From Desulfolutivibrio sulfodismutans DSM 3696 (GTDB taxonomy: Bacteria; Desulfobacterota; Desulfovibrionia; Desulfovibrionales; Desulfovibrionaceae): a DNA stretch of 64,000 nucleotides. The DNA lies in the NCBI RefSeq assembly GCF_013376455.1, contig NZ_CP045504.1:2749001-2813000 (forward strand). Direction: 5' to 3'. Below the pieces are notes generated by a model that was not told where the DNA came from, did not search any database, and worked only from the letters and a program-made list of their open reading frames with translations. Below, piece after piece: positions 26,411-30,202 of the stretch (its first letter is position 1; every line of letters begins with the position of its first letter). The position numbers and the translations under genes are program-made.

Positions 26411-26444
26411 GGACGCCCGCGTTTGCGCGGGCGTCCTTTTTTTT
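26411..26444 (+). terminator. Intrinsic terminator of the liv operon
   Basis: GGACGCCCGCG (26411-26421) and CGCGGGCGTCC (26426-26436) form a perfect 11-bp stem with a TTTG loop, followed by eight T (26437-26444). It lies 24 bases after the CBS-gene stop. Confidence 0.95.
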
Positions 26445-26538
26445 CGCCCGGACCCGAACCGCCTCCCCTGCCCGCCGCGCCTGACGCTTCGTCCGGGCCT
26501 TGCCCCAAAGCCGCTTTTGGGCAAGACTGGCCACCCAC

Positions 26539-29500
26539 ATGGAAACGCGCGACATCGCCGAATACATCCGGGCCCTCCTGGCCTCCGAATCCCTGGGCGG
26601 CTTCGTGGCCCACCACCGGCTCATCCCCGGCCGGGACGCCCGGACCGCCGCCACCCTGCGCCCCTGGCCCGCGATCCTGACCGAGCTTCTGGCCGCCAAG
26701 GGCATCGACTCCCTGTATTCCCACCAGGCCACGGCATGCGACCTCATCCGGGCCGGGCGGCATGTGGCCGTGGCCACACCCACGGCCAGCGGCAAGTCGC
26801 TGATCTACCTGTTGCCCGTTTTGGAGCAGTTTTTACGCGACCCCGAATCCCGGGCCGTGTTTCTTTTTCCCCTAAAGGCCCTGGCCCAGGACCAGTTGCG
26901 GGTCATCGAGGAGCTGCTCGCCCCCCTGCCGCCCTCGGCCAGGCCCCGGGCGGCCATCTTCGACGGCGACACCTCGTCCCATTTCCGGCGCAAGCTGCGC
27001 GACAACCCGCCCAACATCCTGCTCACCAACCCGGAGATGCTGCATCTGGCGCTTTTACCCCACCACGAGAACTGGTCGGCGTTTTTCGCGGGCCTGACCC
27101 ATGTGGTGGTGGACGAGATGCACACCTACCGGGGGGTCATGGGCTCGCACATGGCCCACGTGTTCCGGCGGCTGACCCGGATCTGCGGCCGCTACGGGGC
27201 GCACCCGGCCTTCGTCTTCTGCTCGGCCACCATCGGCAACCCCGGAGAGCTGGCCCGCGACCTGACCGACCTGGACGTCACGGCCATCACCGACAGCGGC
27301 GCGCCCACCGGCCCCCGGCACTTCGTCTTCGTAAATCCCCCGGGCAGCCCGGCCACCGCCGCCGTGAACCTCCTGCGCGCGGCGCTTCACCGGGAGTTGC
27401 GGACCATCGTCTACACCCAGTCGCGCAAGATGACCGAGCTGATCGCCATGTGGCTCTCCGAGAAGGCCGACAAGGACGGGGTGAACGCCTCCCGGGTCAG
27501 CGCCTACCGGTCGGGGTTTCTGCCCGAGGAGCGCCGGGAGATCGAGGCCCGCATGACCTCGGGGGAGCTTTTGGCCGTGGTCTCCACCAGCGCCCTGGAA
27601 CTGGGCATCGACATCGGCGGGCTGGACCTGTGCGTGCTGGCCGGATACCCGGGTTCGGTCATGTCCACCTGGCAGCGCGGCGGCCGGGTGGGCCGCTCCC
27701 GGCGCGAATCCGCCGTGGCGCTCATTGCCGGGGAGGACGCGCTGGATCAGTATTTCATGCGCAATCCGGCGGACTTTTTCGACCGCCCCCCGGAGTCGGC
27801 GGTCATAAACCCCGCCAACCCGGCCATCGCCGCCCGGCACCTGGAATGCGCCGCCTCCGAGATGCCGCTTCGGGCCGGGGAGCCCTATCTGGCCGATCCG
27901 GAGTTTCGGGCCGAACGCGACCGGCTGGCGGACGCGGGCCTGCTTCTGGCCGACGAAGACGGGTCGCGCTGGTACGCGGCCCGCAAAAGGCCCCACCGCG
28001 ACGTGAACCTGCGCGGCACGGGCGGCCGTTTCCGCATCGAGGCCGAGGGCCAGACCCTGGGGGAGATCGACGAGCACCGGGCCTTCCGCGAGACCCATCA
28101 GGGCGCCATCTACCTGCACCGAGGACGCACCTTCGAGATCGCGGACATGGATCTGGCCACGCGCAAGGTCACGGCCGTGGCCTGCCGGGCCGACTATTAC
28201 ACCAAGGCCCGGGGGCACAAATCCACGGAGATTTTGGCGGTCAGCGGCCAGGCTGCGGCCTACGGGGCCAGAGTGTATTGCGGGCGGCTCAAGGTCACGG
28301 AGTGGATCACGGGCTATGAGCGCCGCCGAGTGCGCGGCGGGACGCTGCTGGGCATCGTGCCCCTTGACCTGCCGCCCCTGACGTTTGAGACCGACGGCTT
28401 CTGGTACGCCATCCCCCGGGAGGTGCAGGAGGAGATGGACGCCCGGCTTTTCCATTTCATGGGCGGCATCCACGCCATGGAGCATGCCCTGATCGGTATT
28501 CTGCCCCTGCTTGTACTCACGGACAGAAATGACTTAGGCGGCATCTCCACCCCCCTGCACGAGCAGGTGGGCCGGGCGGCGGTCTTCGTCTACGACGGCA
28601 TCCCCGGCGGCATGGGCCTGACCAAGATGGCCTTCGCCCGGGCCGCGGAGGCCCTGTCGCGCACCCTGGCGGTCATCGCCTCCTGCGAGTGCGAGACGGG
28701 CTGCCCGTCCTGCGTGCACTCCCCCAAGTGCGGCTCGGGCAACCGGCCCATCGACAAAGCCGCCGCGCAATTTCTCCTGGAACGTCTGACCTCCCGCGCC
28801 CCCGAACCCGCCCCGCCCCCCGTGGCCGTCCCCCAGCCGGGAGAGACAAACCCGGCCACCGGCCTGCACAAGGAGTCCGACATGGCACGCGACACCCCCA
28901 AATCGCCCCCGACACCCCGGATTCAGGTGGATGCCCCGTACGCCCCGCCCCCCGCCGCCCCTGTGGCGGCATCCCGCCCGGAACCCGACCCGGCGACAGC
29001 CCCTTCAGGCCACGCCGCCGCCCCCGCCGCCCCCCGGCGCTACGGGGTGCTGGACGTGGAGACCCGGCGTTCGGCCGAGGAGGTGGGCGGCTGGGGCAAC
29101 GCCAAACGCATGGGGGTCAGCGTGGCCGTGCTCTATGATTCGGCCCTGGACGACTTCATCAGCTACCGCCAGGAGGAACTGCCGGAGATGGCCAAGGCCC
29201 TGGCGGTCCTGGATCTGGTGGTGGGGTTCAACATCAAGCGGTTCGACTATCAGGTGCTTGGCGGGGTGTGCGACTTCAACTTCCGAGGCCTGCCCACCCT
29301 GGACCTGCTCGAAAAGGTGCATGAGCGGCTGGGCTACCGCCTGTCCCTGGACGGGCTGGCGTCGGCCACGCTTTCGGCCAAGAAATCCGCCTCGGGCCTT
29401 GCGGCGCTGGCCTGGTGGAAGGAAGGCCGACTGGATCTCATCGAGGAATACTGCCGCAAGGACGTGGCGCTCACCCGCGACCTGTACCTCTTCGGCCGGG

Positions 29501-29565
29501 AGCAGGGCTATCTGCTGTTCACCAACAAGGCGGCGCGCACCGTGCGGCTGCCCGTGGCGTGGTGA
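26539..29565 (+). CDS. DEAD/DEAH-type helicase fused to a DEDD nuclease (MrfA-MrfB-like)
   Basis: A 1008-residue protein. Residues about 1-740 match the YprA/MrfA helicase family: Walker A TPTASGKSLIY (about 80), VVDEMHTYRG (DEMH about 192-195), SATIG, GRVGRSRRE, and a C-terminal four-Cys cluster CECETGCPSCVHSPKC (about 716-731). A Pro/Ala linker (about 755-830) leads to a DEDD-type RNase H fold (about 835-1008): VLDVET, VGFNIKRFD, EYCRKDVALT (Y-x3-D). In B. subtilis these are separate proteins, MrfA and MrfB, acting in repair of mitomycin C damage. The ATG at 26539 is chosen, though no strong ribosome site precedes it. An internal ATG at 28882 has an excellent ribosome site, so the nuclease may also be made alone. 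Confidence 0.88.
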   Translation: METRDIAEYIRALLASESLGGFVAHHRLIPGRDARTAATLRPWPAILTELLAAKGIDSLYSHQATACDLIRAGRHVAVATPTASGKSLIYLLPVLEQFLRDPESRAVFLFPLKALAQDQLRVIEELLAPLPPSARPRAAIFDGDTSSHFRRKLRDNPPNILLTNPEMLHLALLPHHENWSAFFAGLTHVVVDEMHTYRGVMGSHMAHVFRRLTRICGRYGAHPAFVFCSATIGNPGELARDLTDLDVTAITDSGAPTGPRHFVFVNPPGSPATAAVNLLRAALHRELRTIVYTQSRKMTELIAMWLSEKADKDGVNASRVSAYRSGFLPEERREIEARMTSGELLAVVSTSALELGIDIGGLDLCVLAGYPGSVMSTWQRGGRVGRSRRESAVALIAGEDALDQYFMRNPADFFDRPPESAVINPANPAIAARHLECAASEMPLRAGEPYLADPEFRAERDRLADAGLLLADEDGSRWYAARKRPHRDVNLRGTGGRFRIEAEGQTLGEIDEHRAFRETHQGAIYLHRGRTFEIADMDLATRKVTAVACRADYYTKARGHKSTEILAVSGQAAAYGARVYCGRLKVTEWITGYERRRVRGGTLLGIVPLDLPPLTFETDGFWYAIPREVQEEMDARLFHFMGGIHAMEHALIGILPLLVLTDRNDLGGISTPLHEQVGRAAVFVYDGIPGGMGLTKMAFARAAEALSRTLAVIASCECETGCPSCVHSPKCGSGNRPIDKAAAQFLLERLTSRAPEPAPPPVAVPQPGETNPATGLHKESDMARDTPKSPPTPRIQVDAPYAPPPAAPVAASRPEPDPATAPSGHAAAPAAPRRYGVLDVETRRSAEEVGGWGNAKRMGVSVAVLYDSALDDFISYRQEELPEMAKALAVLDLVVGFNIKRFDYQVLGGVCDFNFRGLPTLDLLEKVHERLGYRLSLDGLASATLSAKKSASGLAALAWWKEGRLDLIEEYCRKDVALTRDLYLFGREQGYLLFTNKAARTVRLPVAW
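28870..28884 (+). promoter_or_regulatory. Internal ribosome binding site and ATG within the helicase-nuclease gene
   Basis: AAGGAG (28870-28875), six bases, then an in-frame ATG (28882-28884) at codon 782, in the linker between the helicase and nuclease domains. Spacing and match are optimal. Initiation here would yield a free nuclease of about 227 residues. Confidence 0.6.
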
Positions 29566-29637: not shown

Positions 29638-29922
29638 TTACCGGCGCGCTATCTGGTTCTCCTGAATCTCGACATACCGCTCCAGCACGGCATTGATGCG
29701 CGTCTGATATCCAGGCCCCTGGCGCTTGAAAAATTCGAGAACCCCCGGACTCAGACGAATCGTGACGTTCTGCTTTTTCGCGGGGTGTTCCGCCCGTACC
29801 GCCCGCATCCAAAAGGCCTCGTCCGTAGGCAGGGCGTCGGGATCGGACGCGGCCCGCCGCGCGATCTCCTCTTCCGAAAACCGGGACACCTGTTCCATGT
29901 CAGACTTGAGCTTCCGCTTCAT
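29638..29922 (-). CDS. brnA: BrnA-family antitoxin
   Basis: A 94-residue protein of the BrnA family. Its C terminus (QNVTIRLSPGVLEFFKRQGP, then GYQTRINAVLERYV) is a ribbon-helix-helix DNA-binding unit; the N-terminal half (EEIARRAASDPDALPTDEAF) is the part that wraps the toxin in known BrnTA complexes. Its start overlaps the toxin gene end by 23 bases, so the two are translated together, toxin first, as usual for brnTA. It should repress its own promoter. Confidence 0.9.
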   Translation of the reverse strand: MKRKLKSDMEQVSRFSEEEIARRAASDPDALPTDEAFWMRAVRAEHPAKKQNVTIRLSPGVLEFFKRQGPGYQTRINAVLERYVEIQENQIARR

Positions 29923-30175
29923 ATATCTTTCTCTCCGCCTTGTTCGCCCGTCGCATGGAGATCACGCGCACCGCCCCGTCGCGAAGGGCATATGCCAAAA
30001 ACACGATGGTGTTCTCCAGGCATCCCAAAGCGACATACCGCGTTTCGCCATAGTCCCTGCGGTCGTCCACACGGATGGTCATCGGCCCCTGAAATACGGC
30101 CCAGGCATCCTCCAACCACAGACCATGCTTGTAAAAATTGGATGTGTTTTTGTCTTCGTCCCAGGCAAACCGCAT
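29900..30175 (-). CDS. brnT: BrnT-family toxin (ribonuclease)
   Basis: A 91-residue RelE-like RNase toxin of the BrnT family, recognisable from FAWDEDKNTSNFYKHGLW near the N terminus, ETRYVALG in the centre and VRVISMRRANKAERKIYE at the C terminus. It cuts RNA and slows growth when not bound by BrnA. The frame is open up to an ATG at 30193, but that codon lies inside the palindromic operator, so the ATG at 30175 is preferred; neither start has a clear ribosome site. Confidence 0.9.
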   Translation of the reverse strand: MRFAWDEDKNTSNFYKHGLWLEDAWAVFQGPMTIRVDDRRDYGETRYVALGCLENTIVFLAYALRDGAVRVISMRRANKAERKIYEAEAQV

Positions 30176-30184
30176 ACGAACCAA

Positions 30185-30202
30185 TACGTACATTTGTACA
30201 TA
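30185..30202. promoter_or_regulatory. Palindromic operator of brnTA
   Basis: TACGTACA (30185-30192), TT, TGTACATA (30195-30202): arms match at 7 of 8 positions. The site lies just upstream of the brnT start at 30175, where the BrnA ribbon-helix-helix would be expected to bind. Confidence 0.55.

Follow-up and report, generated by a model that had tools for sequence, protein, structure and literature searches.

A single gene in the 64,000-nucleotide stretch of Desulfolutivibrio sulfodismutans DSM 3696 analysed here (hereafter the window; positions 2,749,001 to 2,813,000 of contig NZ_CP045504.1) encodes a YprA-family SF2 helicase continuous with a C-terminal DEDDy exonuclease-like domain. The two parts share one reading frame, this joined frame is conserved among relatives, its catalytic residues are intact, and it belongs to a lineage separate from that of the mrfAB operons. 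The explanation that best accounts for these observations, to which we give a probability of roughly 0.7, is that the product is a DNA-repair type unwinding-and-digesting enzyme; the DNA substrate, the polarity, the repair role and any link to mitomycin C are proposed by analogy. We hold more tentatively, at odds clearly below even, a two-part proposition: that a helicase of this kind and a DEDD exonuclease have been joined at least twice (with a DEDDh enzyme in the mrfAB operon and with a DEDDy enzyme in the Desulfobacterota fusion), and that the fused gene often gives two products, the free nuclease setting nuclease dosage.

The gene is read from the + strand as a single open frame of 1008 aa (window 26539-29565), from an ATG at 26539 to a stop codon at 29563-29565, without internal stop; the original prediction of a one-frame helicase-nuclease gene was borne out in its coordinates, frame and domains. 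The helicase part has the complete architecture of YprA/DUF1998 (MrfA-type) SF2 helicases, i.e., a DEAD/DEAH RecA1 domain with Walker A TASGKS and a DEMH box (residues 61-233, 26719-27237, +; Pfam PF00270, E 1.7e-27), a Helicase_C RecA2 domain (residues 279-387, 27373-27699, +; PF00271, E 7e-14), an Hrq1-type winged helix (residues 423-494, 27805-28020, +; PF22982, E 2e-9) and a C-terminal MZB/DUF1998 zinc-binding domain (residues 648-726, 28480-28716, +; PF09369, E 6e-21). Within the latter lies the cysteine cluster CECETGCPSC (28684-28713, +), whose C716, C718, C722 and C725 are invariant in 66 sequences. Among PDB entries, the helicase part is closest to B. subtilis MrfA (6znp, E 8e-148, about 710 residues). 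The predicted YprA-type helicase with a four-Cys cluster is upheld. A Pro/Ala-rich linker follows (residues 769-825, 28843-29013, +; pLDDT under 50), which varies in length between relatives, the spacing from the zinc cluster to the DxE motif ranging from 56 to 182 codons.

The DEDDy 3'-5' exonuclease-like domain, a member of the RNase_H_2 superfamily, spans 29029-29562 (+) and is recognised by profile, motif alignment and predicted structure. The motifs VLDVET, FNIKRFD and YCRKD, originally picked out by reading, prove to hold the catalytic residues D839 and E841 (29053-29061), D903 (29245), Y971 (29449) and D975 (29461) on the + strand; all five, including the Y-x3-D arrangement, are invariant in the 75 aligned sequences, and the protein ends about 33 residues past the last catalytic Asp. 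RNase_H_2 (PF13482) scores 21.5 bits at residues 884-983 of the whole protein, just under the cut-off of 22, and 25.3 bits on the nuclease domain alone, over that curated cut-off; it is matched by all 27 family members scanned (E <= 0.1; best 2.4e-10). The domain is modelled with a pLDDT of 95.8 as a DnaQ-type fold that carries the DxE, D and Y-x3-D of DEDDy exonucleases. Its structural matches are the proofreading domains of family-B polymerases (Z about 15-16, 2.4-4.6 Å, 138-164 residues), and also those of T7-type polymerases. The nuclease-like character of the C-terminal domain, on which the original prediction depended, is borne out. The likeness to the family-B domains (Z about 16) lies in the predicted fold and the DEDDy active site; sequence identity is 10-18%, and the window nuclease is carried by a helicase rather than a polymerase. 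In the full-length model (mean pLDDT 87.4, pTM 0.88), whose best PDB match is MrfA (6znp, Foldseek E 1.6e-69), the joint between the two halves, proposed earlier as a target for structure prediction, comes out as a disordered linker at residues 769-825. On this model, the protein would be a helicase to which a 3'-5' exonuclease is tethered flexibly, substrate and polarity being assigned by analogy.

Two genes separated by a stop codon in close relatives had been named as the sign of an assembly artefact. No such arrangement was seen: the frame is joined in both other genomes of the genus, at 86-95% identity. Within the family Desulfovibrionaceae, a match is present in 177 of 199 genomes, mostly in frames of 950-1150 aa. 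Across the phylum Desulfobacterota, the nuclease profile matches 126 of 395 genomes, strong matches lying nearly all in helicase-containing frames. Many families besides Desulfovibrionaceae are represented, fusion loci being named from, among others, Desulfovibrio, Solidesulfovibrio, Desulfoluna, Desulfobacter, Desulfobacula, Desulfobulbaceae and Desulfohalobiaceae. This conservation of the joined frame in genus, family and phylum rules out an assembly artefact or a lost stop, and would fit one main fusion lineage across Desulfobacterota. The short frames examined are mostly contig edges or gaps; the apparent split genes correspond to runs of N (locus L066), to contig edges (genomes G573, G442 and G308) and to a broken contig (G481). 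A search of plasmids returned no relative of the fused nuclease at E 1e-3. Free-standing nucleases of the fused subfamily do occur. One, of 219 aa (L231:3113-3769 region, - strand), adjoins an HD phosphohydrolase-like gene in genome G419, whose sole helicase match is distant (E 6e-4). The second, diverged and of 188 aa (L229:2867-3430), is found in genome G298, which also has a fused copy. The G298 gene has an RmuC-like gene on one side and a NERD-like nuclease/helicase gene on the other, the neighbours being named by eye.

The linker of the window gene itself contains a putative start for such a free nuclease. A Shine-Dalgarno-like AAGGAG at 28870-28875 (+), proposed as an internal ribosome-binding site, lies 6 nt ahead of an in-frame ATG (AAGGAG-N6-ATG, 28870-28884). 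Translation from this ATG (28882-28884, residue 782 of the fusion) would yield a nuclease of 227 aa, the proposed internal gene spanning 28882-29565 (+) as read from the sequence. The main start at 26539 is without an evident Shine-Dalgarno in 26500-26539, and the internal ATG has a strong one. The stretch between zinc cluster and nuclease was surveyed for ATGs preceded by a match of 5 nt or longer to the Shine-Dalgarno sequence in 130 representative linkers (nuclease identity under 85%). In-frame sites are present in 26 of the 130, against 3 in frame +1 and none in frame +2, and exceed the numbers expected from codon shuffling (5.6 ± 2.3) and from synonymous-codon resampling (14.6 ± 2.3). Likewise, a Shine-Dalgarno precedes 26 of 158 in-frame ATGs and 3 of 238 out-of-frame ones (p 1e-8, a guide since the rows are related). 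Local mRNA structure is weaker at the ATGs with a Shine-Dalgarno (z +0.96) than at other in-frame ATGs (z +0.17; p 4e-5, again a guide), with z +0.66 at the site of the window gene. The safer evidence is the redundancy series, in which the excess is kept at four identity cut-offs, down to 7 sites against 4.4 ± 1.1 under the synonymous null at the strictest. The sites cluster 9-39 codons ahead of the nuclease across the family, and lie 57 codons ahead in the window gene. Taken as a set, the family shows the sequence marks expected of a gene within a gene, in-frame start codons with a ribosome-binding site in weakly folded mRNA, more often than chance predicts.

These statistics suggest that, in many species, the linker start makes a gene within a gene that gives a free nuclease. 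Such genes would then produce both the fusion and, from the linker Shine-Dalgarno and ATG, an extra nuclease subunit adjustable by lineage, a proposal whose chance we put only a little below even. It draws strength from the excess over the codon-shuffle, synonymous-codon and out-of-frame controls, from the weaker mRNA structure and the position of the sites just ahead of the nuclease, and from the existence of the free-standing relatives of 219 aa and 188 aa. There are also published precedents in Cas11d and RpnS, since in Cas10d/Cas11d and RpnL/RpnS (PMC10327210) the C-terminal part is likewise translated from an internal in-frame start, which was shown experimentally there and is deduced from sequence statistics only for the window gene. 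Against it, a strong site is found in only about a fifth of representatives, and about half of the count is already explained by the synonymous null. Because most representatives are without a strong site, the internal start would at best be a feature of some lineages. If used, it would let a fused machine adjust, by simple means, how much nuclease it has per helicase; this reading adds to the unwinding-and-digesting enzyme and does not replace it. It has also to be considered that the sites could be disused relics of a two-gene ancestor, as their position just ahead of the nuclease domain, where an ancestral gene would have started, might indicate. This appears unlikely: the fusion is old and phylum-wide and its linkers are highly divergent, and disused signals should neither exceed the synonymous null nor keep low mRNA structure.

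Comparison with the two-gene systems bears on where the fusion came from. The survey of one-gene and two-gene arrangements called for by the original prediction gives a mixed picture across Desulfobacterota, in which the joined frame recurs and two-gene mrfA-mrfB operons of another lineage coexist with it. A YprA helicase is found at E <= 1e-60 in 130 of 297 genomes of the phylum. Besides the fused genes, 36 further helicase loci were fetched, one of them (L254) being a fused gene and some being truncated at contig ends. In 18 of the 36, the helicase gene is followed or overlapped by a separate MrfB gene with a DTETTGL-type motif; MrfB genes were sought there by motif only, so that helicase-only rows inside the mrfAB clade may hide missed ones. 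All 17 operon MrfBs with a readable third motif have HNxxD (DEDDh), and one, analysed by Pfam, combines RNase_H_2 (121 bits) with TPR repeats. A tree of 50 helicases places B. subtilis MrfA with the mrfAB operons of Desulfobacterota (100/100); the fused helicases, beside nuclease-less ones, are separated from them by a 100/100 branch. A tree with a broader fused sample shows the same split. Rooting is at the midpoint only, with a single sequence from outside Desulfobacterota. Within that scope, the fused helicase stands outside the clade that unites the mrfAB operons with B. subtilis MrfA. In the broader tree, helicase-only rows nest in the fused group next to one deep fused row (support 87), and because they fall within this group, loss of the nuclease in helicase-only families is as likely as its late gain; one old fusion with later nuclease losses is possible.

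The nucleases differ as well. MrfB of B. subtilis is a DEDDh enzyme with His258, an N-terminal extension and a C-terminal TPR domain (PMC11194089). The fused nuclease shows an invariant YxxxD in 75 sequences where operon MrfBs have HNxxD and is without their DTETTGL-type ExoI motif, and Pfam finds no TPR domain anywhere in the fusion. Its profile aligns weakly with those of MrfB in hhalign (probability 72%, 69 columns), and the fused nuclease is only remotely related to MrfB. Clearly closer to MrfB (96.6%) is an unfused RNase_H_2 protein of 282 aa encoded by the genome of the window. This protein, whose gene lies downstream of mnmE (L148:4961-5809, about 1832960-1833808 of contig C1), matches the MrfB structure 8UN9 at E 0.0018 and PF13482 at 116-118 bits. 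Its third motif reads YNAAD, which is DEDDy-like. With the fused nuclease as query, 8UN9 was not found in the PDB by sequence search, whether as single sequence or profile, nor is it among the 50 structural matches listed for the nuclease model.

These data weigh on the simplest account of the gene, a true MrfA-MrfB fusion in which the loss of a stop codon merged the two genes of an mrfAB operon and one chain carries out mitomycin repair as in B. subtilis. Indeed, the helicase is of the same family and matches MrfA over some 710 residues, the nuclease belongs to the Pfam family of MrfB, as the RNase_H_2 matches of all scanned members attest, and a 2025 preprint (PMC12458937) names such proteins fusions to MrfB homologues. 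Set against this are the grouping of B. subtilis MrfA with unfused mrfAB helicases apart from the fused clade, the DEDDh type of the operon MrfBs where the motif is readable, the weak profile similarity of the nucleases and the missing TPR domain, and we regard a true MrfA-MrfB fusion as strongly disfavoured and improbable. Because helicase branch, DEDD type, TPR domain and profile distance all differ, the fusion is a parallel pairing rather than an mrfAB operon that was joined up: helicases of the YprA type have apparently been paired with a DEDD exonuclease twice, as operon and as fusion, and the latter would have arisen when a YprA-only helicase was joined to a different DEDD exonuclease. 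The claim that MrfA is fused to MrfB stands in part: a YprA-family helicase and a DEDD exonuclease are indeed naturally fused outside Bacillota, and the fusion is conserved, but the identification of the parts as MrfA and MrfB is not supported. The annotation is corrected accordingly: the window gene is something other than MrfAB, and a role in mitomycin repair cannot be taken for granted. No Desulfovibrio mitomycin fitness phenotype was found in the literature searched.

The fusion as such is already known, the preprint stating that YprA helicases of the repair branch can occur as fusions with homologues of MrfB/YprB (PMC12458937). The main text searched describes these fusions without the split drawn here and does not mention Desulfobacterota, DEDD typing or an internal start. 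What is added here, from sequence only, is the assignment to a separate lineage, the DEDDy type of the active site and the putative internal start. MrfA-MrfB (YprA-YprB) of B. subtilis resembles the window protein in combining a DUF1998/MZB helicase with a DEDD exonuclease for presumed coupled unwinding and 3'-5' digestion, and differs in its two genes and in the features of MrfB given above (PMC11194089). Helicase and DEDD-type exonuclease also share one polypeptide in S. aureus DinG, which has an N-terminal 3'-5' exonuclease (PMC12345164), and in WRN, although both belong to other helicase families and carry the exonuclease at the N-terminus.

In the favoured explanation, the YprA-family helicase, presumed from its relation to MrfA to translocate 3'-5', would open a damaged or blocked duplex. 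The active-site-intact DEDDy exonuclease, presumably 3'-5' and tethered by the flexible linker of variable length, would then digest the 3' strand so exposed, on the pattern suggested for MrfA and MrfB. A joint reaction need not follow from tethering, because MrfB alone also degrades ssDNA. That a fusion would be evidence for one machine outside Bacillota holds insofar as it supports coupled unwinding and 3'-5' digestion; it does not show that the pathway is that of MrfAB. The independent pairing of one helicase family with two different DEDD exonucleases speaks for an intended coupling of unwinding with 3'-end digestion, the question raised by MrfA and MrfB, and the fusion provides a single polypeptide in which such coupling can be assayed and imaged. 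Alternatively, the fused nuclease could have RNA as its substrate, or could serve as a proofreading-like trimming enzyme. A role in anti-phage defence, such as YprA-family helicases have in DISARM, Dpd or Druantia, is very improbable: the helicase core distantly matches defence helicases, but mostly through its generic core, no conserved partner genes lie nearby, and the full-length helicase is best matched by MrfA, whose branch is described as repair-related.

The genomic surroundings fit a stand-alone repair enzyme, with no sign of an obligate partner, since synteny is confined to near relatives and no neighbour gene is conserved beyond them. The search for a sigma-70 consensus promoter came up empty, a result that carries no information here. 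A terminator hairpin of the upstream CBS-domain gene (26411-26436, +; 11 pairs followed by 8 T, -25.4 kcal/mol, z -4.9) intervenes and sets the fusion gene apart from the genes upstream. On the other side, between the fusion and topA, overlapping genes for a BrnA antitoxin (PF14384, 64 bits) and a BrnT toxin (PF04365, 82 bits) occupy 29638-30193 on the - strand.
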